A stretch of DNA of 64,000 bases. Source: Quercus robur (Eukaryota > Streptophyta > Magnoliopsida > Fagales > Fagaceae). The translations under genes and the position numbers were made by a program. The notes beneath the pieces were generated by a model. The model was not told where the DNA came from, made no database searches, and was given only the letters and a program-made list of their open reading frames with translations. Position 1 is the first letter of the stretch, and every line of letters begins with the position of its first letter. Of this stretch, positions 12,472 to 34,813 are shown one piece after another. Where the stretch lies: positions 55,406,290 through 55,470,289 of the forward strand of contig NC_065541.1 in assembly GCF_932294415.1 (NCBI RefSeq), given 5' to 3'.

Positions 12472-15400
12472 TCAATGCTTTATAAACCTCTGGAGGACTT
12501 CAAAGTATTCTGGGAATGATTTTCGGGTGCAACCAGGGTCGTTGATGATGACAGGAACATCTCCACAGGCAGCAAGTGAGAATGCCATGGCCATTCTGTG
12601 ATCATCATATGTGTCAATAGTTGTTACATTGAGATTCTCCGGTGGAGTGATCACACAATAATCTGGTCCTTCTTCAACTGTTGCTCCCAACTGAAATATG
12701 AAGCCCATATGTTTAGTGCAAATGATACTAGAAAAATAAAAGAATGGGAAAACAAAGCAGAGGGATTTCAAATGTAAAGAAAGCCAAATGAACTTACCTT
12801 CCTGAGTTCTGTGCAAATGGCAATCATTCGTTCTGTCTCCTTCACTCTCCAACTTGCCACTATAAAAATAGGAAAAACCAAGAGACTAAGGGTGTGTTAT
12901 CAGCCATAAATCCAAAATGTGCATGATATGATTTCTTATGATGCAGTAGCTTACTTAGATGATTATGTGTTTGTTCACAACTTCTACCTACTACAAGCAA
13001 AAAGTCCACTGTTCTCTAGAGTCTAGACTTGCCTTTTTTATACTTTTTTTTTTTAATTTAATTTTTTTATGTGAAGTTTCCCATTAATGAATAGGTCAAT
13101 TTGTTAGAATTAAAGGTGAGGGCCCACCATATGGTGGCTATATGTGCCTGCATCAAGTTTATGTTCACAGCCATTTTCTACAATAGAAGAGCCTAAATTA
13201 TACACCTATTTTCCAAAATGGAAAAGAAATGGAACCCCAAATGCTGAACACAAGTTCATTGTTAATGTTCCCTATGAAGTCATGAAGTACAAGGAGACTG
13301 GCAAATCCAAGGTTCAATGCATTTACCTTCACCACCACTTAACAAAGGCTAAAATACTCTTAATTTTTTCTCCACCACGAAAAGGCCCACATACCATCTC
13401 TTATAGCAGTCGGTCCATCAGCAAAAAGAGCAACTACAGCAAGAGTCATCGCAACATCTGGCATTTTGTTCATGTTGACATCAATAGCTCGCAAGTGTTT
13501 TCTTTTGGAAGAATCTTGAGGTGGTCCAGTTACTGTGACACTAGTCTCTGTCCAGGTAACTTTAGCACCCATCTTCTCAAGAACTTCCGCGAATTTTACA
13601 TCTCCCTTGAAAAACAAAAAAATATGGTAAAATGTTAGTTGATTTGGTCAATGCATGTGAAATATAAACAGACATGTAGCACAGAGTAGTCAAACTAATC
13701 AAGGTTGTGGTATTAAATCTGGGAGACATTATGAATCAGTAAGAGCTTCACAAGCAACATTGCATTTCTTCACTTAAGTGATATTACTAAATCAGGCTTT
13801 TGCCAATTGTCTAGGATTCCCCACTCCTGGCCCTTAATGGCCATGGGAGTCAGAGCCATGTCTCAATCACAGAGTGGTTGATCATCTGAAAAGATCAACT
13901 AAACACAATGGCATTTACTAGATCAACTACCCAATAATAAACATACTCATCAAACAGCACATTTTAGCTAACTCCAGGATTTGGCTCAAAAATGTTCAGC
14001 AGATTCACATGAGCCCAAATTAAGCACTAAATATTGGCATCCGTGATTTACCTGCAAACTGCTTGTCCCACAGCCTTCAACAGTAACTGTCCCACCGGTG
14101 ACTGCTGCACCAGCTAAGAAGTAACTAGCACTTGAAGCATCACCTTCAACATAAGCATTTCCAGGAGACCTAAAATATTTACTACTCTCAATTCTATAAC
14201 CTGATTTCACAAAGTGTTGGAACTATATATTATAGAACCTACTTGTACTTTTGACCTCCATGGATCAAGAACCGATCCAAGCTATCATTGTGTTCTACAG
14301 AGATCCCAAACCGTTCCACCAGCTTCAAAGTCATCTCAACATAAGGAGCGGAAATCAACCTGTCGATGATTTCAATTTCAACATCTCCAAGAGCCAGAGG
14401 AGCAGCCATGATCAAAGCAGTCAAGAATACACTACTAGTTGATCCAGAGAGCTTCACCTGCAAACAAAGACACAAAGCATGAAGGATCATGTTGGTTAAT
14501 CTTTGCACACAACACCAAAACAAAGTAATCTGTTAGACATGCTGACAAAAAACTTAATGAAAGTGGAAGGAAGGATGAAATGAGCGACATTTTAATTTTT
14601 TCAGGAATGAAAATAGAACATGTACTACATTTCAAAGATGAAAAGAATACTTTTGCCCAATTTTTTTCATCCCAAATGTTTTCCACAGCAATTGCAAATT
14701 GTAAATCATTACATTGATGGAATGTAACTGAAACAAACATATTTGACACTTGAGAATTGAAATCCATAATCCATACACTTAAAATTCCCTTAAATCCTGG
14801 AAGATTCTTTTTAAATTGCTAAATATGAACATTAGACGGCCAAGAGCTTAAAATCAAACAAATGAATCATCGACTTCAAGGGAGGAAAGACTTCACTCAG
14901 AAAGCTCTCCAAGAAGGATTTTGCCCCAACTCACTTGCCAGGTTACAAACCCAATTATCCATTCCTCTATACAAAAGGTAAAATCACTAGTTGAAATCTC
15001 AGTGTAGTTATGCTTATGCAGACCTAATCTTTCTGAACTCAGAATCGCATCACATTAAATTTAAACCTTGCTTCTCAAGGTTATATATCTTTTCAAACGC
15101 AAAGATACAATGCAGAAAAAGGACATGGTGTTGTCTTCTCAGATATCTTACAAAGAGAGGGAAAAAAGGGAATGGGAAACTCAACTCCTTATCAAACCAC
15201 ATTATACAGAACACTTGTGCAAAGAGATAATGCAGAACCTCACCTTACCCCCAGGAAGACCCCCCTTTCCAACTACACGCACAGGAGGACATTTTGTGCC
15301 AAGAAAACAGTCAGCATCTGCACCAAGCTGCTTAAGACCATCAACTAAATCCCCAATTGGTCTCTCTCTCATTCGGGGCACCCCATCAAGTATGTAGCTG

Positions 15401-18400
15401 AAATATATTGAATGGTATAAAAGGGTCAGTCAGTGTAGGAAGTATAACAGTAATCGAGACAAAAGACCATTTCTTACACACACACTCGGTGGGTCTTGAA
15501 CCCATGACCTCACCCTCCATCCCAATATTATGGTAGAAGGAAGTGCCAATCGAACATATCTTGGACTTGGACTCAATCTGAATATCAAGGCTAAAGAGGA
15601 ACAAAAAACAGTGTAGTATAAAGGTAAGAGTCCTATCTTGTAAAATCACAGCTTCCTTCTAGTGGGGCAGGAATTTCATAATTCCGGAATAATTTTGTTT
15701 CAAAAGGCAAATTCAGACAGACCTTGAATGTCCACCAGCAGTGGTAACTGCAGCTGTCAATGGCCGCATTACAGTTCCAGCATTTCCAAGGAAAAGTTGA
15801 ATTTCATCCCTTGATTGTTTACCCACTGGAAAGAGACCACCACAGCCTTCCACAATTGCTCTTTTTATTGCCTTGTCATCTTCCACATGTAGTCCTAGGG
15901 TTTTCAATGCACCAAGCATGTAATGAATATCTTCACTATCCAACAAGTTGTCTACAACAGTTGTTCCCTGAACAATGAATAAAAACAAAAATTAATGTAT
16001 GCCAAATGACTGCACTGTGCACTTGATTTTGATTTATGAATAAAACTTAAACAAGTTCATAATTTACAATCAATTTCTCTATCTAATGCATTTCTTTTTC
16101 ACCAAAACAGACAGAAGTAAATGATCTAAACAAAGACTACTTCAGAGTTCAAAGGACATTTCATGCCACGTTCCTCTATCCTGGGAAAACAAAGAAGGAT
16201 ACAAAACAATTTTTTTAAGGAAAAGGAATGAGGTGAGGCACATTAAGCCGCTGTTTGGAATAGAATTGAAAATGGACTGCTTGAAAAAGATGTTCCTAGA
16301 ACATAGAAGAATTTAGAAAGCTGTACTTGAAAAATCCAGTTATAAACCACCCCCCAAAACACACTGTCCCTTATTGTCCCATAAGTATGCTTCCTTTCCC
16401 ACTAACTGCTCTTAGCCAACGTTCATGGCAAGCCCCTCATCAATGGCCCTCAACCATATTCATCATACCACAGAGGGTTCAAAACAACCTAAGAGACCTT
16501 CAATACATATTCAATCCATGGAGAATCATAAAAAAAAATCTTGAGGGATCATACTTTGATTCATAATCACTATCAAAATTTTTGGGACAATAATTTATAT
16601 CTTCTCTTTTTGATAGGCATAAACAATTCACATATCCATATGAAACTGAAACCATGAGCTTACCCACCATCTATTGTTCACACGGGAAGCATATGTCATT
16701 TGTCCAAAGGATATGATATAAACTTAAAACTAAGCACATCAAATTTCTTGAGTTCTAAAACGACAAGGTGAACTCACCATTGAAGATGGAAAATAACTAC
16801 ATTAAGAACATGAATCAGAGTTTAATTTTTTTTCAAAATTTAAAGTAGAAATCATAATTCAGAAAGAGAGACACACCAATACACATCTATATCAAACTCA
16901 TCAAAGCCAATCTCCTATATTTCTTTCTTTTTAATGACTCTTCTTAGCAAGCAAACAGATACTCAATTTAATTTTAATAATGAACACACATCACAGGCTA
17001 CAACTACAATAATTTGGTTAGCAAAGCTAAAATGACCTGCACTCCTCTGGAACCATCAATTCCAAAAATTTAGCTAAATACCCTCTTTCCCCATTTCTCA
17101 TAAACTAAGCTCAGCCTAAATATTAAGAATTAAAATAAAATTATAAAAATTTAAATTATTAAAAAAAAAAAAAAAAAAAAAAAACTCCAGAACTTTCTCT
17201 TCTTTCCCTCACTCCTTTCCATATCCAAACAGAGAATTATTTAGGGCCTGTTTGGGTAAGGATTTTTCATCACTCAATTTCCGTCACTCAATTTCCATCA
17301 CTCATCACTCATCACTCATTTTTTCACACTCATTTGGCAACATCACTTTTATTTTCATCACTCAATTTTTTCACACTATTCATGGGTCCCACACCTGTCA
17401 GCCAGTACAGTTTTTTTTTTTTTTTTTTTAGTACCCAACTCACCGAAGCTAATATATATATATATATATTTATATAAAAAAAAAAATAAAAAAAAAAAAA
17501 AAAAAAAAAACCGAACAGCCAACCTAGGAAAAAAAAAAAAAAAAAACCAAACAGCCAACCCAGGAAAAGAAAAAAAAAAAGAACAACGGCGACCCAAAAA
17601 AAAAAAAAAAGTCAAAAGGTGGCCAAAAGTTGCGGCTGTGGGTCCCTCATGTGTGTTTATTTACGGAAATGCCATTGAGTTATGAGTTATGGAAACTGAA
17701 AACAGTCTTTTGTTGTTTTCAGTTTCCATAACTCATAACTCAAAAATCAGAGAATTGAGTGATGGAAACAAAGTTATGGAAACAGAGTTATCGTTTGGCC
17801 AAACAACCTTTTTACTATGGGTTCCACCATTTTTGAATTATGAGTTATGGAAACAGAGAATTGAGTTATCAAAAAACTCAATCCAAACAGCCTCTTAATT
17901 TCTAGCACAGCCCAGATACAAAGTAAACAACATATGCTATTCCCCCTCTCAACAACTCCATAAAAGTGTATAACCCAAGTACCAAAAATCATCTTCTTCT
18001 TAATTTTTTGGTAACAAAGGCCAGCATTAAAAACTAAAGAGTTTGATTACAAGACACGCTGTGTGTGTTATATTACATTCCCAAAAAGTCTAAATATTAA
18101 CAGTAGGGCTACATCAGAGGGGGGAATCAGAAACGACAAAATCTTGGGACCCCCTTCTTGCAAGTGCATCAGCACATTTGCTTGCTTCTCTGTAACAGTG
18201 CTTAATTATCTTCCTGCCCGTAAAACTGCATTCTCCTTAGGTCCCTCAATTTAAAAATGTTTGGTCTAGTCCTTAAAATTTTCAAAATGTAACAATTTAG
18301 TCCCTCCATCTATTTTTCCGTTAAGTGACTACCAGAATGCTAAGACCAAAATCAAAACAACCCCGTATTTTAGGGACAAAAAATGCAAGTAAGAAATGGA

Positions 18401-18865
18401 CGGAAAATAAACAAAGGTACTAAATTGTTTCAAAATTGAATTGACCCCATATTTGAGGGACCAGTCATGCAATTTACCCTACGGAAAACAGAAAAAATAG
18501 ATTATAATTTCCTGCATTTTCCTGCACGTTCTCAACAACCAAACATTGAATACCTCAGATAGAGCAGCCAGAAGCAGAATCCGATTTGACAGTGACTTGG
18601 ACCCCGGCAACGTGATAGTGCCGGAGATATCTTTGATGGGTTGCAACACGATCTCCGGTACCGTTGATGGCTTCCCAGCTGTGGCAACTGAAGCACAAAC
18701 TCTAAATGTACCAACTTTACCACCACCCACCATGCACACATGCTTGTGCTTCAAAGTCAAAGACTTTGATGAGCCCAAAAACTGTGACCCAAAAGAGAGT
18801 GAACTCAGAGATTTGGGTTTGTGGGCAACACTACAGATTTGGGTCGTTGATGATGACAGGAACAT
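12472..18865 (-). CDS. EPSPS: EPSP synthase copy A, 8 exons, recombined 5' end
   Basis: Encodes 3-phosphoshikimate 1-carboxyvinyltransferase, the plastid shikimate-pathway enzyme joining PEP to shikimate 3-phosphate. Exons (high to low): 18865-18554, 15967-15723, 15397-15244, 14457-14243, 14169-14052, 13605-13395, 12859-12798, 12690-12472. All introns are GT/AG, phases match, and the frame is 511 codons, a normal precursor length. Visible core motifs are [59 protein letters not shown] and [11 protein letters not shown]. The glyphosate-site Gly, Thr and Pro are the wild-type residues. Two oddities stand out. The usual SSQ (E. coli Gln171) is SSV. The native start is gone: exon 1 joins a truncated exon 8 of copy B at about 18839, which supplies an in-frame ATG at 18865 ([17 protein letters not shown]). 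The Ser-rich, Lys/His-containing N-terminus could still act as a transit peptide. No native promoter precedes it, so expression is uncertain. Confidence 0.93.
15475..15562 (-). mobile_element. Degraded tRNA-derived SINE in intron 2 of copy A
   Basis: Reading the minus strand, a tRNA-like A box (TTCGATTGGCAC) is followed by GGTTCAAGACCC as B box. The same SINE, better preserved, sits at the same place in copy B (31295-31635), so it predates the EPSPS duplication. Confidence 0.5.
17244..17894. mobile_element. PIF/Harbinger-like MITE in EPSPS intron 1
   Basis: The ends GGGCCTGTTTGGGT and (reverse complement) GAGGCTGTTTGGATTGAG form inverted repeats, flanked by TTA (17241-17243 and 17895-17897). 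The inside has repeated ATCACTCAATT blocks and A- and T-rich runs. Copy B lacks it at the matching site near 32335, so it arrived in copy A after duplication or was lost from B. Confidence 0.75.
18003..18240 (-). mobile_element. LINE 3' fragment with RNase H tail
   Basis: The minus strand reads [19 protein letters not shown] then [11 protein letters not shown] and a stop, the typical C-terminus of the RNase H domain of plant L1-type LINEs. An A-rich tail (GTTACCAAAAAATTAAG on the minus strand) follows. It is a 5'-truncated insertion in EPSPS intron 1. Confidence 0.65.
18241..18461. mobile_element. Small inverted-repeat element in EPSPS intron 1
   Basis: The ends GGTCCCTCAATTT and (reverse complement) GGTCCCTCAAATATGGG bound about 220 bp of non-coding sequence. 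No clear target duplication was seen. Confidence 0.5.
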
Positions 18866-18870
18866 CTCCA
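18835..18870 (-). other. EPSPS exon 1 / exon 8 recombination junction
   Basis: Below about 18839 the minus strand matches EPSPS exon 1. Above it, the strand matches exon 8 of a second copy (AAYGACCC of the INDPGC codons). Only a few bases (GGG) are shared at the join, which suggests end joining. In copy B's frame the join gives INDPNL then a stop; in copy A's frame it gives the upstream ATG. Confidence 0.85.
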
Positions 18871-19335
18871 CAGGCAGCAAGTGAGAATGCCATGGCCATT
18901 CTGTGATCATCATATGTGTCAGTAGTTGTTACGTTGAGATTCTCCGGTGGAGTGGTCACACAATAATCTGGTCCTTCTTCAACTGTTGCTCCCAGCTGAA
19001 ATATGAAGCCCATATGTTTAGTGCAAATGATACTAGAAAAATAAAAGAATGGGAAAACAAAGCAGAGGGGTTTCAAATGTAAAGAAAGCCAAATGAACTT
19101 ACCTTCCTGAGTTCTGTGCAAATGGCAATCATCCGTTGTCTCCTTCACTCTCCAACTTGCCACTATAAAAATAGGAAAACCAAGAGACTAAGGGTGTGTT
19201 ACCAACCAGAAATCCAAAATGGGCATGATATGGTTTCTAATGATGCAGTAGCTTACATAGATGATCATGTGTTTGGGATCAACTTATTTGCATAGTATTT
19301 ATATTATAAAAAAAGAGTTTTTGGTAACTTCCTTA

Positions 19336-21184
19336 TCTTATATATAAAAGCCGCTATGCCCGCTACAGTGCTTTGGTACTGTACATTCAGTGTGTTTGTA
19401 CTGTGCAAGCACTGTAGCGACTACAGTAATTTTTGGTGAGCACCATGCGGTTCTGTAGCTACAGTGCCAATCGGTACTGTAGCTACAGTACCTAAAGCCT
19501 TTTTTTCCCAGAGCAATCTTTTTTCTTTTTTTTTTTCTCGATTTCTTTTATTTTCTTTTAAATATTTATGTAAACTGATATATATATTATTATATTAACA
19601 TAACAAATTTCACAATATTTTTACAATTATTGACGTGTCAATTTTTTACAAGTCGAAATAAAATAATAAAATATGAGATTGTAATCAATTACAACTAAAA
19701 ATAAATGTTTTGAGGAAATGTTACAAAACTTATTATGCAATGCTTTTACTTTATTCAACTGGTATTGTAGTTACATTGCCTAAAGTTTTTTTTTTCCCCA
19801 GTAATCGGTTTATGTTTCTTTTTTTCCCTTTTAGATATTTATGTAAGCTGATATATATATTGTTATACTGACACAATAAATTTCACAATATTTTCACAAT
19901 TATTAACGTGTCAATTTCTTACAAGTCGAAATAAAATAATAAAATATGAGATTGTGACCAACCACAACTAAAAATAAATGTTTTGAGAAAATGTTACAAC
20001 CTTATTGTGCAGTGCTTTTGGTTTATTCAACTGGCATGGTAGTCACAGTGCTTATTTTTATTTTTATTTTCCAGTAATTGGTTTGTGTTTTTTTTTTAAA
20101 TATTTATGTAAGTTGGTATATATATTGTTATATTCACATAACAAATTTTACAATTATTGAAGTGTCAATTTCTTACAAGTTGAAATAAAATAATAAAATA
20201 TGAGACTGTGATCAACCACAACTAAAAATAAATATTTTGAGAAAATATTACAACACTTATTGTTATTACAATATTTTCACAATTGTTGAGATCCTAGTTT
20301 TTTATAGATCAAATAAAAAAATGCTAAGTCCACAACATTTTAACATTAATTTTTACAATGCCTAAAGTTTTTTTTTTTTTTTTTTAGTTATCGGTTTGTG
20401 TTTTTTTTTTTTTTTTTTTCCTTTTAAATATTTATGTAAGCTGGCATATCTATTTCTATTAACTATATAAATAGAGCCAAAGGTCCATGAATAGTATTTT
20501 TTTGGTTTATTCAATTAGTGAGGTGCACTTTTTGTTTTCTTTTCTTTTTTTCCTTTTTTTCTTTTTTCTTTTTTCCTTCAAGTATGCCAGCTGGTTTAAG
20601 TTTTGTTTTTGTTTTTGTTTTTTGTTTTTATTTTTTTTTTAAGATCTTTATATGTTTACTTTGTACTCGCAATGCAAGTTTACATTGTAAATACACAAAA
20701 GTGGTTAATATTATACACATTTGCACAAAAAATGGTAAATATTATACAAATTTAATTTGCCAATTTTTTTTATGTCTACAATATAAATTTACATTGTAAT
20801 TAAGTACAATGTATACATAGAGAGATTGTGAAAATGTTGTGATGCATGTGTCAATTCCTTATGGGTCAAAATAAAATAAGATAAAATAATAAAATATCAT
20901 ACCGAGATCTAGCACAACTAAAAATGTCGTGACATATTGTTGTTATTACAATATATTTACAACTATTGAGGTGTAAGTTATAGGTCAAAATAAAATAATA
21001 AAATATTAAACTGGGATCCGTAACGATCTTATACGAATGAGATTAACTTTTTATAACATAATTATCAAATTTTTTTAAATTAATGTCTCTTTTTATTTTG
21101 TAATACAAATAAACTTTAAAATTGATCATAATCATTTTTTTTTTCCATGGCTAGCACGTGCCTTACACGTGCTGCCTCAACTAG
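19336..21184 (+). mobile_element. Non-autonomous Helitron 1
   Basis: The 5' end TCTTATATATAAAAGC follows an A. The 3' end has the hairpin AGCACGTG-ccttA-CACGTGCT about 7 nt before CTAGT (21181-21185). No Rep/helicase frame is present. It contains ~250-280-bp tandem repeats and many CTACAGT motifs. Confidence 0.65.
19600..20330. repeat. ~255-275-bp tandem units, Helitron 1
   Basis: Blocks with GTCAATTTCTTACAAG followed by AAATAAAATAATAAAATATG recur near 19637, 19911 and 20166, each followed by AACCACAACTAAAAATAAAT. Confidence 0.75.
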
Positions 21185-21287
21185 TATTATAAAAGCTCGA
21201 ATGCCGCTACAGTGCTTCGGTACTGTGCACTCAGAGTGTTTGCACTGTGCAAGCATTGTAGCGGCAACAATGCTTTGGTGAGGCACT

Positions 21288-21329
<42 letters not shown>

Positions 21330-21789
21330 CAGCCTTCCGTTTGTATTTTTTTTTTTTACTGTTATATATATTGCTGTATTGACACAACAAATTTCACAAT
21401 ATTTTTACAATTATTGAGGTGTCAATTTCTTATAAGTTAAAATAAAATAATAAAATATGAAACTGTGACCAACCACAACTGAAAATAAATGTTTTGTAAA
21501 AAGAGACAATGCCACTACAGTTTGCACTGTTCATCTATAGTGTTATTTTGGTGAGCCTATCTTTGTTTTTTAAGTTTTGAACGGTAGTTACAATTCCAAA
21601 TGACACTATAGCTACAATAGCTACATTTTTTCTTTTAGTCTTCCATTTGTACTTTTTTTTTCCTTTTATATATATTGTTATATTGATACAACAAATTTCA
21701 CAATATTTTCACAATTATTGAGATGTCAATTTCATTTTGCTGCTTTAGTGTTTTAGCACTGTTCATCTACAGTGTCATTTTGGTGAGCC

Positions 21790-21834
<45 letters not shown>

Positions 21835-22506
21835 GAACAATAGTTACAGTACCAAGCGGCACTGTAGCTACAATACCAAGCGGCACTGTAGCTACAGTAG
21901 TAATACAAAATTTTTTTTTTTTTCAGTCTTCCGTTTGTACTTTTTTTTTTTCCCTTTTATATATATTGTTATACTGACACAACAAATTTCATAATATTTT
22001 CACAAGTGTCAATTTCTTATAAGTCAAAATAAAATAATAAAATATGAAATTTTGACCAACCACAACTGAAAATAAATCTATATATATAAAAGCACGAATG
22101 CACTAAATCACTGTAGCTACAGTGCTTTGGTTTCGTGAGCCACTTTTTTTTCCCAAGTTTTGAATAGTAATTGCAATGCCAAGTGGCACTGTAGCTATAA
22201 TAGCTGTAGTTTTTTTTTTTTTTTTTTTTTTTTTTTTCATGTAATCGGTTTGTGTTTTTTTTTCCTTTTAAATATTTATGTAAGTTGGTATATATATTGT
22301 TATATTGACACAACAAATTTTACAATATTTTCACAATTATTGACGTGCACGAATACACTACTATAGATACAGTGCTTTGGTTTCATGAGCCACTTTTTTT
22401 TCCCAAGTTTTGAATAGTAACTACAATGCCAAGTGGTACTGTAGCTACAGTAGCTACATTTTTTTTTTCTAGTAATCGGTTTGTTTGTTTGTTTGTTTGT
22501 TTGTTT

Positions 22507-22548
<42 letters not shown>

Positions 22549-24749
22549 CCTTTTAAATATTTATGTAAGTTGGTATATATATTGTTATACTGATACAACA
22601 AATTTCACAATATTTTCACAATTATTGGCATGCCAATTTCTTACAAGTCGAAATAAAATAATAAAATATGAGACTGACCAATCACAACTAAAAATAAATG
22701 TTTTGAGAAAATGTTACAACACTTATTGTGCAGTGCTTTTGGTTTATTCAACTGGTACGGTAGCTACCGTGCCTAAAGTTTTTTTTTTTTTTTTTTAGTA
22801 ATCGGTTTAATTTTTTTTTTAATATTTATGTAAGCTGGTATATATATTGTTATACTGACACAACAAATTTCACAATATTTTCACAATTATTGACGTGTCA
22901 ATTTCTTACAAGTCGAAATAAAATAATAAAATATGAGACTGTGACCAATCACAATTAAAAATAAATGTTTTGAGAAAATGTTACAACACTTATTGTGCAG
23001 TGCTTTTGGTTTATTTAACTGGCATGATAGCTACAATGCTTAAATATATATATATATATTTTTTCAGTAATAGGCTTATTTTTTTATTTTTTATTTATGT
23101 AAGCTGGTCTATATATTGTTATATTGACACAACAAATTTCACAATATTTTCACAATTATTGATGTGTCAATTTCTTACAAGTCGAAATAAAATAATAAAA
23201 TATGAGACTGTGACCAGCCACAACTAAAAATAAATGTTTTGAGAAAATGTTACAACACTTATCGTGCAGTGCTTTTGGTTTATTCAACTGGCATGGTAGG
23301 CCTAAAGTTTTTTTTTTGTTTTTTTTTTTATTTTTATTTTTAGTAATCGGTTTGTGTTTTTTTTTCTTTTAAATATTTATGTAAGCTGGTATATATATTA
23401 TCATATTGACACAACAAATTTCACAATTATTGACGTGTCAATTTCTTACAAGCCGAAATAAAATAATAAAATATGAGACTGTGACTAACTACAACTAAAA
23501 ATAAATGTTTTGAGAAAATGTTACAACACTTATTGTGTAGTGTTTTTGGTTTATTCAATTCGCACGGTAGCTACAGTGCCTAAATTATTTTTTTTTTCAA
23601 TAATCGGTTTGTTTTTTTTTTTTTTTTTTTTTTTTTAATATTTATATAAGTTGGTATATATATTGTTATACTGACACAACAAATATCATAATTATTGACG
23701 TGTCAATTTCTTACCAGTCGAAATAAAATAATAAAATATGAGACTGTAACCAACTACAACTAAAAATAAATGCTTTGAGAAAATGTTACAACTCTTATTA
23801 TTATCACAATATTTTTACAATTGTTGAGATCTCAGTTTCTTATACATCAAATAAAAAAATGCTAAGTCCACAACATTTTAACATTAATTTATACAGTGCC
23901 TAATTTTTATTTTTTATTTATTTTTTTTTTATCAGTTATCGGTTTGTGTTTTTTTTTTTCTTTTAAATATTTATGTAAGCTAGCATATATATTAACTATA
24001 TAAAAAGAGCCAAAGGCTCATGAATAGTAATTTTTTGGTTTATTCAATTAGTTAGGTGCACCTTTTCTTTTCTTTTTTCTTTTTCTTTCCCCTTCAAGTA
24101 TGCCAGTTGGTTTGAGTTTTGTTTTTGTTTTTTTTTTTAAGATCTTTATATGTTTACTTTGTACTTGCAATGCAAGTTTACATTGTAAATAGACAAAAGT
24201 TGTTAATATTATACACATTTGCACAAAAAATGGTAAATATTATACAAAGTTTGTAAATGTGTACAAAATTTGTCAATTTTTTTGTGTCCATAATATAAAT
24301 TTACATTGTAATTAAGTACAATATAAACATAGAGATATTATGAAAATGTTGTAACGCATGTGTCAATTCCTTATGAATTAAAATAAAATAAAATAAAATA
24401 ATAAAATATTATATCGAGATCTAGCACAACTAAAAATGTCGTGACATTTTGTTGTTATTACAATATATTTACAACTATTAAGGTGTAAGTTATAGGTCAA
24501 AATAAAATAATAAAATATTGGACTAAGATTTGTCACGGTCTTATACGATTGAGATTAACTTTTTATGACATAATTATCAAAATCCTTAAAATTAGTATCT
24601 CTTTTGATTAATGTAAATCTCTTTGTATTTTAAAAATCAAATGATTTATATTTATATTTTGTGATACAAATAAAATCTAAAATTGATCCTAATCACTAAT
24701 TTTTTTTCCCCATGGCTAGCACGTGCCTTGCACGTGCTGCCTTGACTAG
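21185..24749 (+). mobile_element. Non-autonomous Helitron 2, head-to-tail with Helitron 1
   Basis: It begins directly after the CTAGT of Helitron 1 with TATTATAAAAGCTCGAATG. It ends with a perfect 9-bp hairpin (AGCACGTGC-ctt-GCACGTGCT) and CTAGT at 24746-24750. Helitrons insert between A and T, and A19335 and T24750 fit this for the whole array. A further 5'-end-like motif (TCTATATATATAAAAGC, about 22078) suggests nesting. No Rep/helicase is encoded. Confidence 0.6.
22560..23830. repeat. ~265-bp tandem units, Helitron 2
   Basis: The unit (TATTTATGTAAGCTGGTATA, then TCACAATATTTTCACAATTA, then GTCGAAATAAAATAATAAAA) recurs near 22635, 22900, 23168, 23440 and 23705. T-runs of variable length lie between the units. 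Confidence 0.8.
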
Positions 24750-25019
24750 TTTACGTTAAAATGACAAAAAATTAAAAGTATTAAAAGTTCACTTATTTTC
24801 AAAAGGCTAAAAGTTAAATTATTTGCAAAAAACTTGAGACAAAAAGCGAAAATCAAGAAACAAATAAGCAAAAGCCAAACACAAAATAAAACTAGTTCAC
24901 CACTTCTACCAACTACAAGCAAAGAGTTCACTGTTCTCTAGACTAGCCCTTTAAAAAAAAAAAAAAGAATTTGTGAAGTTTCCCATTAATGAATAGATCA
25001 ATTTGTGGATTTTTGTATT

Positions 25020-25168
25020 CCATATATTGTGATGAGTGTTAAGCGTTTGTGGTGAAATAATTTTTTCATCACAGCCTTAGATTTTTTTTTTTTTTTTTTT
25101 TTTGTGATTGGAAAATATATTAATTTTAAATTATAATTTATACATATTATTATAATCAGAGGCTAGTG
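25020..25168. mobile_element. Truncated CTCAGAGGCTAGT-type MITE
   Basis: It shares GTGGTGAAATAATTTTTTCATCACA, here with small changes, and an end CAGAGGCTAGT with the elements at 2526 and 2998, but has only about half of one. It marks the left edge of the PPR block. Confidence 0.6.
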
Positions 25169-25199
25169 ATAATAATCAATATGGCATATGTATTTTTAC

Positions 25200-25424
25200 A
25201 AAGAAATGTGTGTTTGTTTTAATTTTAATATTTTTTTATAAATAGATAAAGCAATTTGAAAACCATTAGAAGAGTGGTCCTATTTTACAGGCAATGTTTT
25301 AGTGGGAGTTAAAAGAAATGTGTGTTTGTTTTAATTTTAATTTTCTTTATAAATGGATAAAGTAATTTGAAAACCATTAGGAAAGTGGTCCTATTTTACA
25401 GGCAATGTTTTAATGGGAGATAAA
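25200..25424. repeat. ~115-bp tandem duplication
   Basis: Two adjacent copies of a segment with AAATGTGTGTTTGTTTTAAT and CAGGCAATGTTTTA differ at only a few positions. Confidence 0.75.
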
Positions 25425-25515
25425 GAAACATTTTTACCAAGTTTGCCCCTACTTAAACGTAGGCTGTAGGAGTATTTTGAAGAAAAAAAATCCAGTTCAA
25501 ACGGGGGAAGCCCCT
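25425..25515. mobile_element. End fragment related to the palindromic element
   Basis: TTTGCCCCTACTTAAACGTAGG and TCAAACGGGGGAAGCCCCTT, read with a few changes, resemble the terminus of the element at 4700-4796. No partner end was seen. Confidence 0.4.
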
Positions 25516-25544
25516 TGAATCCCTGACTATGATTTTCATGAATT

Positions 25545-25792
25545 CTACGGTGCAGTTTGGATCCGGCTTTTTGCGCGTCTACGTTTTAAAATCACGTTTC
25601 GTTGTTTTTTTTTTTTTCAAGCCACAGTATTTGACTTTTCACGGGTCCCACAAACTTTACTTACTAACAATTTTTTTTATTAAAAATAGGTCTCACGGGA
25701 TTATTTACACATTTAAAAATTATTTTATTACAGTATTTTCAGTTTTTATTTTTCAGTTTCAATAAAATAAATTTTATCCAAACGGATCCTTG
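25545..25792. mobile_element. hAT-type MITE (248 bp)
   Basis: The ends CTACGGTGCAGTTTGGATCC and (reverse complement) CAAGGATCCGTTTGGATAAA are imperfect inverted repeats. They are flanked by an exact 8-bp duplication CATGAATT (25537-25544 and 25793-25800). Confidence 0.75.
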
Positions 25793-26350
25793 CATGAATT
25801 TAGAACTGATGACCCCATAATCTCATCAGGTTCAAATAATAATTAATTACTCTTATGCAACAGTGGATCATTAAATTTTTTTTTTTATTATTTTTTTGAG
25901 AAACTAGTGGATCATTAATTGATAGTCGTAGATGCATAAAAACCATTACATTTTTATAGTCCAAGCAACCAAAAACCACTCTTTTTCTGTAATTGGTACA
26001 GGCTTATTAAAAAGGTCCACAAAATTCCAAAACTACCCCACCAAAACCCAATCAATGTTCCCGACAACCGTTTCCTTTAAATTAATGGGGAGGAGGACTA
26101 AATAGTAAAATCGTTGTTCTAAACAGGAAAATAGAAGAAGAATGACTTGGTGAAGTGTGTACATTTTCAGCCGCCCCCTTCCCCAATTTTTTTATGCTCT
26201 CTCCCCATCAGATAACTGATCAGTAGCTTAGTTCAACTAAACTACCCTCAAAACCGACCGATTCTCTCTCTCTCTCTCTCTCTCAATTCTCAAACTCTAT
26301 CGTTTCGTTCTGATTTCCGCTGCCGAATTGTTTGCTGGATCTTCAGGAAA

Positions 26351-28287
26351 ATGGGTACGCTGCTTCGTACTTCCCTCACTTCTTTTCGTTCTTATTGTTA
26401 TTATACTCTTACTACTGCTAGTATTGTTAGTGCTAAAAAAATCACGAATCATAATCACAATCAGAATCAAAATCAATTCTTGAAATCTGTTAGAGATCAG
26501 TGCATATCTAGAAGCTTTAGGAATGTTGATCATGCCTTACACCTGTTTGATACAATGCTTCACATGCGCCCTTTGCCATCCATTGACGATTTTAATCACG
26601 TGTTGGGTGTCATTGCAAGATTGAAGCATTACCCAGTTGTCATTTCTCTAATTAAACGAATCGAATCATTTGGTATCTCTCCTGATGTTTATACTCTTAA
26701 TATTTTGGTTAACTGCTTCTGCCATTTGAACCGAGTAGATTTTGGGTTTTCTGTCTTGGCAACAATTTTGAAACTTGGTTATCACCCAAACTCTATTATT
26801 CTAAACACCCTTGTCAAGGGGCTCTGTCTTCAAGGTAACATTGCTGGAGCTGTGAGATTGGTAGAAGAAATGGAGAAGAAGGGGTATAAGCCTAATGCAA
26901 TTACTTGTGGAACAATACTGAATGCTCTGTGTAAGATTGGACAGACTAGTATGGCTATTAGATTGCTTAGGAAGATGGAAGAAGGGAATTTTGAGCTTCA
27001 TCTGTCAGCGTATAACACAATCATTGATAGTTTATGTAAGGATAGATTGGTAACTGAGGCTTTGTTTAGTTTCTATTTCTTTTAGCTCTTGATCTTCTTG
27101 TATTTGTTTCATTGTTCAAAGTGTTCACCATCGTGAACATGATGTTCAATTCTTTTAATAAAAGTCTTATTACCTATCAAAAAAAATTAACTGAGGCTTT
27201 GAACCTTTTATCTGAAATGATGAGTAAAGGCATTCAACCGGATCTTGTCACTTACAATTCCTTAATTCAAGGCCTATGCAATTTCAGCCTGTGGAGAGAG
27301 GCTATTACTTTGTTGAATGAGATGACACAGAGGAAGATCGTGCCATGTGTAAGGACCTTCAGTATATTGGTGGACACATATTGCAAAGAGGGGATGTTGA
27401 TAGAGGCGAAAAAAGTTTTTGATATGATGATTCAAAGAGGTATTGAGCCTAACGTAGTCTCTTATAATACTTTGATTGATGGATATTGTTTGCAAAATAA
27501 ATTGAAGGATGCCATCGAAGCATTGAACATGATGGTTGAGAGGGGTTGTTCACCTAATGTTATTAGCTATAACACATTGATTAATGGATTTTGTAAAAAG
27601 AAAAGAATTGATGGGGCAATGAATTTCTTTCATGAAATGTCCAATAAGGGAGTAACTCCTGATGTTGTGACTTACAACACTCTTATAGGTGGGTTTTGTC
27701 GAGTGGAGAGACATAAGGCTACTCTAGAGCTATTTCATAAGATGCAGGCTTGTGGTCAACCTCCATATCCCCAAACCTATGCTGTCTTGTTGGACAGCCT
27801 ATGCAAGAATGGACAAGTTGTTGAGGCAATAAAAGTGTTTCATGAGATGGAAGACAAAACATTGGGCAACAATATTGTGATTTACAACATTTTAATTGAC
27901 GGTTTGTGTAATGTTGGGAATCTTACAATTGCAAGAGAACTCTTTTATAGTCTACCTGCAAAAGGATTGCAACCCAATATTCGAACTTTCAATGTAATGA
28001 TCAAAGGGTTTTGCAAAGAGGGGCTAATTGATGAAGCGAGTGAGTTGCTAGAGAAAATGGATGGGAACCATTTCTCTCCTAATGATCGAACATATAACAC
28101 AATCATCCAAGGGTTGTTGCAACAGAGTGAGACAGTAAAGGCTATGGAACTTATTAAGATAATGATTGGCAAAGGTTTTTCAGCAAATGCAACCATTGCA
28201 TCCATGTTGGTTGACTTGCTATCTACAAATCCAGCAGATAAATCACTTCAAGAATTACTTATTAAGACTTTGCCAGTCAATCTATAA
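26351..28287 (+). pseudogene. RFL-type P-class PPR protein, broken by a retroposon
   Basis: PPR proteins bind organellar RNA; this P-class type resembles Restorer-of-fertility-like (RFL) mitochondrial proteins. The start at 26351 gives MGTLLRTSLTSFRSYCYYTL, a basic Ser/Thr-rich leader fitting a mitochondrial presequence. About 14 PPR motifs of 35 residues follow, for example NTLVKGLCLQGNIAGAVRLV and NTLIDGYCLQNKLKDAIEAL, then the end TLPVNL. Within motif 5 a 123-bp retroposon plus 14-bp target duplication adds 137 nt, giving stop TAG at 27083-27085. The motif frame resumes at 27189. Without the insert the frame would read straight on (DRLVTEALNLLSEM). A truncated protein with four motifs is possible. 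The gene lies on the opposite strand within EPSPS-B intron 6. Confidence 0.9.
27065..27187 (+). mobile_element. 5'-truncated LINE/retroposon tail in the PPR gene
   Basis: A 123-bp insert ends TTACCTATCAAAAAAAAT and is flanked by exact 14-bp repeats TAACTGAGGCTTTG (27051-27064 and 27188-27201). The sequence before the A tail (GTTCACCATCGTGAACATG..TTTTAATAAAAGTC) resembles the 3' tail at 61386-61577, so this is probably the 3' end of an L1-type LINE. Confidence 0.85.
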
Positions 28288-28584
28288 GGCATATGTATAT
28301 TTGTTGGAAGTGGTAATTTACTTTTTATGAAGTGATGTTTCTTTTCATATCATTGATGTTTTTTCCCTTTCAAACTTTATTGTCTTTTTTATTATTTATT
28401 TATTTATTATTTTTAATAATCTGTAATTAAATAGGTTTTATTTGAAGTGAAGATTTGGTTGACCCTCACAAGGAGTTATTGGATGGGAGGAGAACTTTAC
28501 TCTCTATGGAGTTGTGATAGATACAGAATAGGTCTTGGGAACCATATCACACATGAACAATGTGACATTCTCTCCTAAAATTAG

Positions 28585-28744
28585 AAGTGCTATGTCAACA
28601 ACATTTTCACAACAAATCATAAGTGGTAACTTATTATTGGTTTTAATTTGAATTTACCACTTAAATTACTTATTTGCTCACTAGTAACAACTTATAATAG
28701 TTTGCCACTTAAGATTTGTTGTGAAAGTGTTGTGGACAGAGCTT
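28585..28744. mobile_element. Short inverted-repeat MITE downstream of PPR gene
   Basis: AAGTGCTATGTCAACAACAT and (reverse complement) AAGCTCTGTCCACAACAC..TTTCACAACAAATC pair across ~160 bp. A related element is at 42470-42632. Confidence 0.6.
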
Positions 28745-28845
28745 TTCTCCTTCTAAAATAGCCATAAAAGTTGTAGCATGAAAGGAGTAAACTTTAATTT
28801 GATTCTATTCCAATCATTTATATATTCTATTGTTTTATAAACTTC

Positions 28846-28931
28846 AATTTGAATTGTCCAACATGGGAGAGGCTCCCTATTTTGTCACTTACTGCAGTCT
28901 TATAGGTGGGTTTTGTCGAGTGAAGAGACCC
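28846..28931 (+). pseudogene. Orphan PPR motif fragment
   Basis: It contains TGTCACTTACTGCAGTCTTA and TAGGTGGGTTTTGTCGAGTG, closely matching 27637-27713 of the PPR gene (VTYNTLIGGFCRV motif). It stops abruptly where EPSPS-B intron 6 sequence resumes at about 28932, so it marks the right edge of the inserted block. Confidence 0.8.
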
Positions 28932-29426
28932 CATTATACACAACCATTTTCTACAGTAGAAGGGCCTAAATTATACACCAATTTTCCAAAATGGAAAAGA
29001 AATGGAACCCCAAATGCTGAACACAAGTTCATTGTTAATGTTCCCTATGAAGTCATGAAGTACAGGGAGACTGGCAAATCCAAGGTTCAATGCATTTACC
29101 TTCACCACCACTTAACAAAGGCTAAAATACTCTTAATTTTTTCCCCACCATGAAAAGGCCAACATACCGTCCCATATAGCAGTCGGTCCATCAGCAAAAA
29201 AAGCAACTGCAGAAAGAGTCATCGCAACATCTGGCATTTTGTTCATGTTGACATCAATAGCTCACTAGTGTTTTCTTTTGGAAGAATCTTGAGGTGGTCC
29301 AGTGATTGTGACACTAGTCTCTAACCAGGTAACCCTAGCACCCATCTTCTCAAGAACTTCCGCAAATTTTACGTCTCCCTTGATAAACGAAAAATATGGT
29401 AAAACATTAGTTAATTTGGTCTATGC

Positions 29427-29465
<39 letters not shown>

Positions 29466-31294
29466 TCAAAGTAATCAAGACTGGGGTAATAAACATAGCA
29501 AATATTATGAATCAGTAATAGCTTTAAGAGCAACATTGCACTTGTTCACACGTGATATTGCTAAATCGAGCTTTTGCCAATCGTTTAGGATTCCCCACTC
29601 CTGGGGCCATGTCTCAATCGCAGAGAGGGTGATCATCTGAAAAGATCAGCTAAAGATCATTAGCATGGTTTACCAGATCAACTACCTAATACTACACATG
29701 CTCATCAAACATCAGATCTTAGCTTTCTCCAGAATAGGCCCAAACTGTTCAACAGTTTGCACACACCCAAATATTGGCACTTGTGATTTACCTGCAAACT
29801 GCTTGTCCCACAACCTTCAATAGTAACTGTCCCACAAGTGACTGCTGCACAAGCTAAGAAGTAACTAGCACTTGAAGCATCACCTTCAACATAAGCATTT
29901 CTAGGAGACCTAAAATATTTACTACTCTCAATAGTATAACTTGATTTCACAAATTACTGGAACTATATATTATAGAACCTACTTGTACTTTTGACCTCCA
30001 CGAATCAAGAACCGATCCAAGCTATCTTTGTGTTCTATGGAGATCCTAAACCGTTCCACCAGCTTCAATGTCATCTCAACATAAGGAGTGGAAATCAACC
30101 TGTCGATGATTTCAATTTCAACATCTCCAAGAGCCAAAGGAGCAGCCATGATCAAAGCAGTCAAGAATACACTACTAGTTGATCCAGAGAGCTTTACCTG
30201 CAAACAAAGACACAAAGCATAAAGGATCATGTTGGCTTAATCTTTGCACACAACACCAACACAAAGTGTTCTGTTAGACACTGGTAAAATACTTAACGAA
30301 AGTGAATGGAAGGACGAAATGACTGACATTTTCAATTTTTAGGAACAAAAATTGAACATGTACTATGTTTCAAGGACAAAAAGAATATTTTTGCCTAATA
30401 TCTTGTTTTGATAGGTAGATAGTGGGGAGGAGGGAGGTGGGGGTTTGAACCATAGATATGGGACACCACAAATGATGCCATTATTGCTGGCATGTTTTCC
30501 ACTACAATTGCGATTTGTAAATTATTACATTGATGTAATGTAACTGAAGCAAACAACAATATTTGACACTTGAGAATTGATATCCATACGCTCAAAATTT
30601 CCTAAAATACTTAATGACTCTTTTTAAAATTCTATACATAAGGATACACTGAAAAGAGCTTAAAGTCAAAAAAATAAATCATTAACTTCAAGGGAGGAAA
30701 GACTTCACTCAGAAAGTTCTCCAAGAACAAATATGCTCCACCTCACTTGCCAAGTTACAAACCCGGTTATATCCATACCTCCATACAAAAGATAAAATCA
30801 CTAGTTGAAATCTCAGTGTAGTTATGCAGACCTAATCTTTCTGAACTTGGAATGACATCACATTAAACTTAAAGTTGGCTCCTCAAGGTTATGGCTTCTA
30901 GGACAGAAAGACATCAATGCAGAAAAATGACATGACGTTGTCTTCTCAGATATCTCAGAAAGAGAGGAAAAAAAAGGGAATGGAAAACTTAATGTCTCAC
31001 GAAACCGCATTATATGGAAGACTTGCGCAAAAAGATAATGCACAACCTCACCTTATCCCTTGGAAGACCCCCATTCCCGAATACACATACAGGGAGACAT
31101 TTTGTGCCAAGAAAATAGTCAACATCAGCACCAAGCTGCTTAAGACCATCAACTAAATGTCCAATTGGTCTCTCTCTCATTCGGGGCATTCCATCAAGTA
31201 TGTAGCTGAAATATATTGAATGGTGTAAAAAAGTTTGTGTACAAATTTGTAAATGAGACATATCACATAAGACCATTTCTTGTCTAAATATCTT

Positions 31295-31635
31295 TTTTTA
31301 TTTTTATTGGCAAGTTACACATGCACTTGGTGGTCATGAACCATCCCGTTATTTATTTATATATTTTAAGTGGAGAAGAAGGATTTGAACCTTGGATGTC
31401 TCCATTGGAAACATCAAGAAATACCATTTGACCTAAAGAAGAGTTCTTTAGACTCACCTCTAGCTAGTAAACCTATGTGCAAATGACCCCACCCACCAGA
31501 ATCAGTTCCTAGGCAATCCGTGGGCATTCACCCCTAATGAGCTAAGTAGTTTATACTTATTCTCATGAGCACACCCTCCATCCCATTATTATGAGGAAAG
31601 GATGTGCCAACTGAGCTATAGCTCATTGGCTCTTA
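31295..31635 (-). mobile_element. tRNA-derived SINE in EPSPS-B intron 2
   Basis: On the minus strand: AGCTATAGCTCAGTTGGCAC (A box), an A-rich tail (CCAATAAAAATAAAAAAA), and exact 12-bp duplications TCTAAATATCTT at 31283-31294 and 31636-31647. Inside it, near 31360-31445, lies a second SINE of the 11332/44484 family (TTTCCAATGGAGAC, then GGTTCAAATCC). A ~115-bp segment at 31440-31560 recurs at 32835-32960. Confidence 0.6.
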
Positions 31636-32375
31636 TCTAAATATCTTGGACCTGGACTTAATCCAAATTTCAAGGCTAAAGAGAAAAAAATAAAATAAAA
31701 TAAAGGTGTAGTATAAAGGGAACAGTCCTATCCTGTTATGAATATCACAGCATTCCTTCTAATGGGGCAGAAATTTCATAATTCTGGAACAATTCTGTTT
31801 AAAAATGCAAATTCAGACAGACCTAGAATTTCCACCTGCAGCTGTCAATGGCCACATTGCGGTTCCAAAATTTCCAAGGAAAAGTTGTACTTCATCCCTG
31901 GATTCTTTACCCACTGGAAGGAGACCGCCACAACCTTCCACAATTGCTCTTTTTATTGCCTTGTCTTCTAACACACTAATTCCTAGGGTTCTCAATGCAC
32001 CAATCATGTAATGAATATCATCTCTATTCAACAAGTTGTCCACAACAGTTGTTCCAGAATAATAGATGAGAACAATTAATGTATGCCAAAAGACTGGACT
32101 TGATTACGAGTAAAAATGAAACAATTTAGTCATTTATCATCAATTACTTAATCTAATGCTTTTCTTTTTCACCTAAACAGACACCAGAAGTAAATCAATT
32201 CCAAAAATGAAATACTCTCTTCCCATATTTCTCATGAACTAAGCTCAATCTAAATATTAAGAATTAAAATAACCAAGAAAAAACCAACTCTCTCATCTTT
32301 CCCTTGTACCTTTCCACATCCAAACAGAGAGTTATTTTATTTCAAGCACTGGAAAACGGATTTGGCTTATGTTTA

Positions 32376-32522
32376 GTACTTTTTAACTGGAATCTCATTT
32401 TTTTTTTTAATGAGGAACTACCACATCACCCACTAACTAAATAAAATGTGAAGACTAAAATCAACTACCACTTACTATTGTGTATTTAAAATAAAATGAG
32501 ACCTCCAGTTAAAAAAATACTA
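32376..32522. mobile_element. Small MITE in EPSPS-B intron 1
   Basis: AGTACTTTTTAACTGGAATC and (reverse complement) AGTATTTTTTTAACTGGAGG form ~28-bp inverted ends around ~90 bp. Confidence 0.65.
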
Positions 32523-32669
32523 GAGGTAAGCCACACCCTAGGAAAACAAACAACATGTACTATTCCCCCTCTCCCCAACATCATAACCAACCAAACAAAA
32601 TGTCTATATTACATTTTCTAAAATTCTTAATTTATTAGGCCCACAAGCTAACAAAATGAAATACACAAT

Positions 32670-33230
32670 TGACAACAACAACAACATAGCCTTAGTCCCA
32701 AAATTTTGGGGTCGGCTATGGATCCTCAATAGACTACTAAGGGTCCTCCACATATATTATTTTCCGTCATTCTGGTATATCTCTTTGTTACCACCTATTG
32801 GACACGTCATTTTTTTTTATAACATAAGGAACTTTTTTCAAGAAGAGTACTTTGGACTTGCCTTTAGCCCATAAAACCTACTAGCAATTGACTCCACTCG
32901 CCATAACTAGTTGCCGAGTAATCTAGGGACATTCACCTTCGAAGGGCTAAGTAATAAAACCTACAAAAATGTCATTTTTTACTACTTTCTACTAATGTTA
33001 TTTTAGGTCTTTCATTATTTTTTTATACTTGACTTGAATCAACTCACTTCTTCTAAATGGCTCCACAATGCACATGAACAAGATCAGCTATCACAAGTCA
33101 TTTTTCATCAATAGTGCATCCTATCTTTATGTGAATTTCTCTATTTCAAATTCTACCTTTCTTTCTATTTCCACTTATCCATCTTCACATTCTCATTTAA
33201 GCTACACTAAATTTATAAAATACAAATTTT
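32670..33230 (-). mobile_element. RTE-type LINE 3' fragment in EPSPS-B intron 1
   Basis: The minus strand ends GTCGGC / CCCAAAATTTTGGGACTAAG / GCTATGTTGTTGTTGTTGTC. The widespread plant RTE-like LINEs have this GGGGTCGGCTA...(TTG)n tail, and upstream is a badly decayed stretch matching their C-terminal coding region in layout. A short dispersed repeat interrupts it at 32835-32960. Confidence 0.5.
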
Positions 33231-33666
33231 AACTAACTGAAAACTAAAATACAAAATTTTAAAATGAAGAATATAAAACTCCTAAATTTTCCTACACTTT
33301 CTCAACAACCAAACATTGTATATACCTCAGAGAGAGCAGCCAGAAGCAGAATTCGATTCGACAGCGATTTAGACCCCGACAACATGATAGTACCGGAGAT
33401 ATCTTTGATGGGTTGCAACACAATCTTCGGTGGCATTGACAGCTTCTCAGCTGTGGCAACTGAAGCTGAAACCCAAAAGGTACCAACTTTACCACTACCC
33501 ACCATGCACACATGCTTGTGCTTCAAAGTCCAGGACTTTGATGACCCTAAAAGTTGTGACCCAAAAGAGAATTTGGGTTTTTTGGAGTTTGGGATTGTTG
33601 TCAAAGACTTGGGTGTTTTGAGCTCCGCAACAAATTTTGCTTACTTGTCCTTCCATTGACAAAATC

Positions 33667-34159
33667 CAAGGCATGTTTGGTAGACTGTAATAGGCTCTGT
33701 AATGTAATAGTTATTCCTATGGTTTAGTTATTCTTTAGTTTGGTTATCTTTTTATTACAAGGAATAATCATTCCATATGAATAGCTATTCTTCAAAATGA
33801 GGAATAAATATTCCTCTTTAAAAGGTTGTATTAGCTATTCCTTAGTAAGTGCAATAATTTTAAAACTTAATATATTTCTAAGTAAACAAACTTTCCATAT
33901 ACATATAATAATTATAAAAATAAAAAATCATAAAAAATAACATATATCTCTCTTAAATTTAAAAATAATTTTTTTTAAGGAAATATAATTGTATGAGTAA
34001 GAAATTTCCTAAAATAAATGTTAAGTTTCATTCTAATGTTATAACTTGCAACCAAACTAATGAATAGGTTTAGTTATTACATTACAACACATTTTATTCC
34101 TAGTAATAAAGATTACAATTCCTATCGTAATCCCCATTCAGTGTACCAAACATACTCTT
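33667..34159. mobile_element. MITE directly upstream of EPSPS-B start codon
   Basis: The ends AAGGCATGTTTGGTAGACTG and (reverse complement) AAGAGTATGTTTGGTACACTG bound ~490 bp with matching inner AATAGTTATTCC / GGAATAACTA motifs. Its edge lies 11 bp above the ATG at 33655, so it replaces or separates the proximal 5' UTR and promoter. No clear target duplication. Confidence 0.65.
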
Positions 34160-34813
34160 AGTAAATTTGGATACTAATTTTTAATGAGGAAAAAAAAGAA
34201 TTTTAAGAATTATAAATTTAAAGGCAATTTGGCGGAAAAAAGAAAGAAAAAAAAATTGAAATAATAGTTATTTTTTATTATAAAATAACACGAAAACAAT
34301 CTTTTAATAATCTCAATTACAACATGATGTAATAATAAAGCCAATGTAAGAAAAAATTGACATTTTAATAGTTATTTATTTCACTTCCAAAACATGTTGT
34401 AATTGACATTATTAGTGAAAATAATCTCAATCACATCAATAGTGTCAGTGGCTTAGCTCAAAACATTTCAAAACTCCTGATTTCATTTGGTGTGAAAGTG
34501 AAAATTTAATAGGAAATTAGAAATGTAATTATTTTATTTTTTAATAAAAATGGATAGGCAATATTTTCCTTAATAAATAAGGCTATGAAGAATGCTAGTA
34601 AAAAAAGAATCTGACCAAAACCTATTTCAACTCAAACCCCACGCCCAAGTACCTCTCTCTATGCGCAATAAGTACAAATCCTATGTTCATTTTTCCTGGT
34701 CAAACTCAAAACGCTGGTTCCCATTTCTCAGGGTTTTGAAGAAGAATTTGTCTTCCTCTCACTCCTCCCATCTGGGTTTTACTTTCTCTCTCTCCCTCTC
34801 TCTCTTTGAATCA
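34160..34813. other. Intergenic / 5' flank of paralogue 1
   Basis: AT-rich with no element recognised up to about 34600, then a CT-rich leader just before the start of the gene at 34814. Confidence 0.5.

Follow-up and report, generated by a model that had tools for sequence, protein, structure and literature searches.

A tandem array of three copies of the gene for EPSPS (aroA, EC 2.5.1.19), an enzyme of the shikimate pathway, in Quercus robur, all on the minus strand and following one another in the transcription order B, A, C, contains a chimera: exon 8 of copy B runs into exon 1 of copy A, and copy A is itself a mosaic of B-type and C-type sequence. In the account that we consider probable, a B-type gene was duplicated from within exon 1 to within exon 8 and copy A took up sequence from copy C, which would leave B decayed, C working and A with little activity. 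Judged from its sequence, A is most likely a 5′-truncated, probably non-catalytic chimera. The window analysed is the whole stretch of 64,000 nucleotides in which A and B lie, and coordinates count from its first base (Table 1).

Table 1. Features of the EPSPS array (positions in the window, except for the first row)
Feature	Position	Strand	Remarks
Window	55,406,290-55,470,289 of NC_065541.1		68-Mb contig; genome of 786 Mb in 42 contigs
Copy A EPSPS, 8 exons	12472-18840	-	GT-AG borders, one open frame; PF00275, TIGR01356
Copy A exon 1	18554-18840	-	5′-truncated
Copy A exon 2	15723-15967	-
Copy A exon 3	15244-15397	-
Copy A exon 4	14243-14457	-
Copy A exon 5	14052-14169	-
Copy A exon 6	13395-13605	-
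Copy A exon 7	12798-12859	-
Copy A exon 8	12472-12690	-
ATG from exon 8 in another frame	18863-18865	-	511 codons, stop at 12474-12472
Out-of-frame upstream ORF	18831-18899	-	ATGs at 18899 (22 codons) and 18893 (20 codons)
Join of B exon 8 and A exon 1	18840-18841	-	from sequence comparison
Copy B exon 8	18841-18995	-	last 64 coding bases, including the stop, missing
Copy B exon 7	19103-19162	-	2-base deletion
Copy B exons 6 to 1	29168-33656	-	from exon comparison
Copy B exon 6	29168-29378	-	two stops
Copy B exon 5	29792-29909	-
Copy B exon 4	29983-30197	-
Copy B exon 3	31052-31205	-
Copy B exon 2	31823-32055	-	acceptor AG lost, 12-base deletion
Copy B exon 1	33326 to ATG at about 33656	-	11-base deletion
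First insert, B intron 6	19286-24895 (approximate limits)		repeat arrays, two Helitron-like 3′ ends
Second insert, B intron 6	25016-28920 (approximate limits)	+	interrupted PPR gene
B-type tract 1 (exon 4, intron 4)	14185-14443	-	A-B 94.2%, A-C 90.2%; 23/34 informative sites B-type
B-type tract 2 (intron 6)	13216-13389	-	A-B 97.7%, A-C 75.9%; 39/40 informative sites B-type
B-type tract 3 (intron 6 to exon 8)	12541-12972	-	A-B 96.7%, A-C 90.1%; 39/50 informative sites B-type
C-type tract, join to exon 4	14455-18836	-	A-C 96.4%, A-B 84.7% (pooled)
Further C-type tracts in A	13399-14162 and 12973-13207	-

At the join, exon 8 of B reads down to 18841 and exon 1 of A takes over at 18840, the two abutting directly with no gap and with at most one base shared at the break. 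An earlier note on this DNA had placed this junction, between exon 1 of A and the middle of exon 8 of B, at about 18839, which agrees well with the position found. In A's own exon 8 the counterpart of 18841 is 12536, from where coding continues for 64 bases including the stop. With copy C as reference, exon 1 of A picks up at native codon 6/7, at the Lys/Ile of KICS, without a change of frame, in line with the claimed loss of the native start and promoter. The frame of B ends with TAG two codons beyond the join, also as claimed; it had already been lost before the join through the 2-base deletion in exon 7 and the two stops in exon 6. Copies A and B thus show the head-to-tail order and the internal join of two exons that characterise a partial tandem duplication. 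The lesions of B in exons 1, 2, 6 and 7 are independent of the join, and B, which differs from C by about 15%, is a pseudogene.

The sequence repeated at the join extends over 438 aligned bases at 96.1% identity, and a join by chance can therefore be set aside. A 501-base query spanning the join, searched against the 786-Mb genome, returned one full-length match and four partial ones, all within A, B or C, and the join between B exon 8 and A exon 1 is confirmed as real. An assembly error uniting two unrelated pieces is very improbable: the join is known to us from the assembled sequence, but the contig spans 68 Mb, the differences of 2.6% (B exon 8 versus A) and 4.9% (A exon 1 versus C) are larger than a repeated piece of one haplotype would be expected to show, and the order of the remaining array agrees with the join.

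Copy C, which the earlier note could not take in, lies to the left of the window, its ATG about 1 kb past the edge and 13.4 kb downstream of the copy A stop, and its own stop about 7 kb past the same edge. It is complete, with eight exons and 520 codons beginning at a native start (MAQVSKICSG), has Gln at the position of Escherichia coli residue 171 and matches the solved EPSPS 9war at 22 of 22 active-site positions; C is most likely an ordinary working EPSPS gene. When the C protein was run by tblastn across the window, matches fell in A and B and nowhere else, and a fourth EPSPS copy was rejected after the same search gave no match in the 10 kb beyond C. A whole-genome search for PF00275, made exon by exon with the best candidates scored, such that a very diverged copy could escape, yielded 22 matches from 26 candidates, 19 of them in the array and three at one other locus (C37:29.247-29.252 Mb). 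The latter was rejected as EPSPS on the scores of its 201-residue exon, 135 bits with murA and 40 with aroA (NCBIfam scoring covered this one of the three matches); it looks like a plant MurA gene matched in three pieces. As this locus is MurA-like and not EPSPS, C is the sole canonical EPSPS found in the genome.

The relation of A to its two neighbours changes along its length. Alignment of the three copies, with the two intron inserts of B and gap columns left out, gave pooled identities in the B-type tracts of 829/862 (96.2%) between A and B, 744/853 (87.2%) between A and C and 85.3% between B and C. In the C-type tracts, which exclude intron 1, A matches C at 2614/2713 positions (96.4%) and B at 2243/2648 (84.7%), with B-C identity at 85.2%; these tracts make up about three quarters of the compared A positions, intron 1 again left out. 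Intron 1 (A-C 94.9%, A-B 56%) did not enter the counts of tracts, runs and rates, as B can hardly be aligned there. At the 498 informative sites (143 B-type and 355 C-type) we counted 106 runs, whereas 10,000 shuffles gave 204.8 on average and never fewer than 167. Copy A therefore alternates between tracts that resemble B and tracts that resemble C, clustered beyond chance, as expected under gene conversion between paralogues.

This mosaic is not a clean one. In the first C-type tract 28 of the 246 informative sites are B-type, and six consecutive B-type sites in A exon 1 (18749-18713) form a tract of their own at one of two fit settings. B-type tract 1, which carries the Gln to Val change discussed below, is the weakest, with 11 of its 34 sites C-type. 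The 3′ flank of A, followed down to about 11904, matches C at 455/542 positions (83.9%), near the B-C distance, and from this comparison A probably retains the original 3′ end of a B-type gene. Since B-C identity stays at 85.3% and 85.2% in both sets of tracts, A appears to be the receiver of sequence. The 96% identity over exons 7 and 8 had also been considered as an A-to-B transfer; this was rejected by reasoning, as the stretch, once copy C is taken into account, agrees with a B origin for this portion of A.

The earlier note had proposed a simple head-to-tail duplication of one unit running from exon 1 to exon 8. The order and the join bear this out; that it is the whole story is not supported, as A is a mosaic with copy C. 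The note is also silent on the independent lesions that make B a pseudogene and on the change at an active-site position of A. Most of A being C-type (identity of 96.4% with C and 84.7% with B), a simple duplication with A and B as its two equivalent products does not suffice, and copying from C must be added to the order and join that such a duplication gives. Starting from the observed join, open frame, mosaic, complete copy C and lesions of B, we infer the following order of events. A unit of a B-type paralogue that began within exon 1 and ended within exon 8 would have undergone head-to-tail duplication, a step that would have made A without a native promoter or start and with a B-type 3′ end, and would have removed the last 64 coding bases of B. 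One such duplication inside a B-type gene could explain the B-A order, the join and the distance of the A 3′ end from C. At a similar age, corresponding to about 4% divergence, A would have acquired at least three tracts from C (one between the join and exon 4, one over exons 5 and 6, and one in part of intron 6), either by gene conversion or by template switching; the B-type and C-type tracts are equally diverged (3.8% and 3.6%), so that duplication and copying are inseparable in time. B would have decayed afterwards, and the frame of A would have been kept open, yet with the B-type Gln to Val change retained at an active-site position.

That same equality lends itself to a serious rival, a single replication-based event that left B exon 8, restarted in C exon 1, moved to and fro between the templates C and B through homology and ended through B exons 7 and 8, producing join and mosaic together. 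Identity of A to B in the B-type tracts (96.2%) equals that of A to C in the C-type tracts (96.4%), which would let all tracts share a single age; past the join A is C-type already at the first informative base (18836), and no more than one base is shared at the break. Three C/B alternations with smaller tracts of about 170-430 bases, lengths typical of gene conversion, are equally expected from repeated conversion, however, and one age is indistinguishable from several close ages in so little sequence. We regard a single event as rather unlikely, and less so than a second route to the same join, in which B and A were old, complete tandem genes fused later when the DNA between B exon 8 and A exon 1 was deleted. 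Copy C proves that a complete neighbouring copy exists, but a deletion would need further events to produce the mosaic, and the remoteness of the A 3′ flank from C (83.9%) set against the closeness of exon 1 (95.1%) argues that A is not a plain complete duplicate of C. This deletion is accordingly an improbable origin, and duplication within a B-type gene followed or accompanied by copying from C remains the preferred one.

As the earlier note had it, exon 8 read in another frame provides an in-frame ATG at 18865 from which 511 codons run to the stop at 12474-12472. The frame of A stayed open because exon 8 in this other frame gives ATGs and no stop ahead of the join, and it is open further upstream, a point that the earlier note does not make, with 526 codons from the ATG at 18910 and 527 from that at 18913. 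Exon 1 of A lacks 36 bases (12 codons) present in C, internal to the exon. Of the in-frame ATGs, that at 18913 has a weak context and that at 18910 a moderate one, whereas the out-of-frame ATGs at 18899 and 18893 both have a purine at -3 and G at +4 and open a reading frame that overlaps the ATG at 18865 and stops just beyond the join; further ATGs occur at 19013 and 19132. If a transcript began slightly above 18913, a scanning ribosome would meet 18913, 18910, 18899 and 18893 ahead of 18865. With four ATGs ahead of it, two of them out of frame and in good context, the start of the 511-codon frame is not the obvious one. As regards a possible plastid transit peptide, the first 70 residues from 18865 contain no Asp or Glu.

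The predicted A protein covers positions 2-417 of the 417 in the PF00275 profile (464 bits), that is, a full-length EPSP synthase domain, and scores 470 bits against TIGR01356 (aroA) with a cut-off of 287. Its active site is not fully conserved: A agrees with C at 20 of the 22 E. coli positions that we take to represent the active site. Both A and B have Val in place of the residue that corresponds to E. coli Gln171, which presumably contacts the substrate, while Gln is found in E. coli, in C and in 9war, 9uow and 8umj, the three closest solved EPSPS. At position 172, A and E. coli share Phe and C has Tyr. A literature search on the role of Gln171 in EPSPS found no paper.

Over the part that begins at residue 66, seven changes are common to A and B at sites where C and the three solved EPSPS agree (247, 248, 270, 284, 297, 378 and 463 in A numbering), the Gln to Val replacement among them; the change at 378 falls in a C-type tract. 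A alone differs at 170, 184, 497 and 500 (B is missing at the last two). A separate observation concerns the GNAGTAMRPL loop, where A has Val (15770-15772) for the conserved Ala after Gly-Thr; Ala stands there in B, in C and in the three solved EPSPS. We consider it most likely that A makes little or no active enzyme, and poor or no expression together with loss of catalysis would be expected.

All exons and splice sites of A are nonetheless intact. Had A decayed neutrally to its present divergence, it would have stayed intact with a chance between 0.04% and 20% according to the frameshift rate assumed, the low rate of 0.018 per substitution being a rough one taken from two frameshifting deletions in B exons, with the 10-base gap beside the B start omitted; some constraint on A is thus possible. 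Replacement and silent changes amount to 11 and 5 on the A branch and to 7 and 8 on the C branch (exons 1, 2, 3, 5 and 6, stop codons in B omitted), a difference that is not significant (Fisher p 0.29). Changes found in A only (16/992 in exons, 25/1447 in introns) and in C only (15/992 and 22/1447) do not separate the two by rate, the intron count comprising introns 2, 3 and 5 and omitting introns 1, 4, 6 and 7. As estimates from sequence, intactness and branch counts would neither prove nor exclude a use of A.

A working or re-purposed A that draws on a new promoter within the remnant of B or within the inserts, carries a chimeric N-terminus and is under selection would be compatible with any origin of the array. 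The intact open frame and splice sites and the range of neutral probabilities fit this reading, as does the precedent of PtrEPSP-TF (Xie et al. 2018, cited from PMC6172325), an EPSPS homologue of Populus that serves in a different role. In that account PtrEPSP-TF has an added helix-turn-helix N-terminus; A is likewise an EPSPS homologue with an altered N-terminus, but from 18865 that of A amounts to eight residues and part of a ninth, encoded by exon 8 in another frame. Against use of A stand the replacement of Gln by Val at a position that does not vary in the compared sequences, the changes at similar sites, the two out-of-frame ATGs in good context ahead of 18865 and the excess of replacements on the A branch (11/5 versus 7/8 on C, p 0.29, not significant). 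We hold it doubtful that A works. The more specific proposal that selection maintains an expressed A in the form of a non-catalytic or altered EPSPS-like protein, its start and first residues supplied by the exon 8 of a neighbour and its promoter by the pseudogene remnant or the inserts, is a speculation to which we attach little probability. Were A expressed, it would offer a natural test of another role for a plant EPSPS without the active-site Gln.

Conversion between working genes and pseudogenes is well known, for example between human CYP21A2 and its pseudogene. The oak array resembles that pair in having tracts of tens to hundreds of bases common to tandem paralogues, with changes of a decayed copy appearing in another copy; it differs in that the patchwork copy, A, is itself promoterless. 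Chimeric genes made by tandem duplications have been described in Drosophila yakuba, where, according to Rogers et al. 2017 (PMC5460883), duplication shuffles exons and regulatory elements into chimeric structures as it appears to do here. In contrast to that work, both breaks here lie in one gene family, the organism is a plant, and the product, known from sequence, is mixed with a third copy. Amplification of EPSPS in weeds, tied to glyphosate resistance in the abstracts of PMC3677901 and PMC10421919, likewise yields additional copies of the same gene; here B is broken and about 15% from C, A is 5′-truncated, and no role in resistance is indicated. Literature searches on EPSPS in Quercus, or on EPSPS tandem duplication with gene conversion, returned no such array in the titles or abstracts listed.

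Copy A is a clear example, probably without function, of chimeric gene formation by partial duplication and gene conversion. The array gives a well-preserved, copy-by-copy view of how a partial tandem duplication strips a gene of promoter and start codon, of how a neighbouring exon read in another frame is able to supply a start codon, and of the way in which sequence from a working gene and from a decayed neighbour comes together in a third copy. It also carries a warning for annotation, since automatic calls may label A as a second EPSPS, though C is the only canonical one found.

Several further elements were seen in and around the copies. In intron 1 of A, about 650 bases (17243-17895) are missing from C, with ends that are GGCCTGTTTGG-like and CCAAACAGCCTC-like by eye; this stretch is perhaps a mobile-element insertion. 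Credible homology between the 5′ flanks of B and C stops at the B start codon, where an adjoining segment (about 33665-34160) has MITE-like inverted ends by eye. The first insert in B intron 6 contains, among arrays of a repeat of about 270 bases, two Helitron-like 3′ ends (24719-24750 and 21155-21185), each a CACGTG palindrome pair followed by CTAGT, in keeping with the rule for Helitron ends. On the plus strand of the window, three open frames of 234-329 codons (34592-35581, 43172-43891 and 60351-61055) gave no Pfam match at E 0.001; they look related by eye and perhaps form a small local gene family. The PPR gene in B intron 6 (26351-28287, opposite in strand to B) consists of two frames. 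Between them stand about 120 bases with an A-run at the end and, judged by eye, a short direct repeat, AACTGAGGCTTTG, on either side, an interruption that resembles the insertion of a short retroelement. An 80-base PPR remnant lies at 28850-28929.
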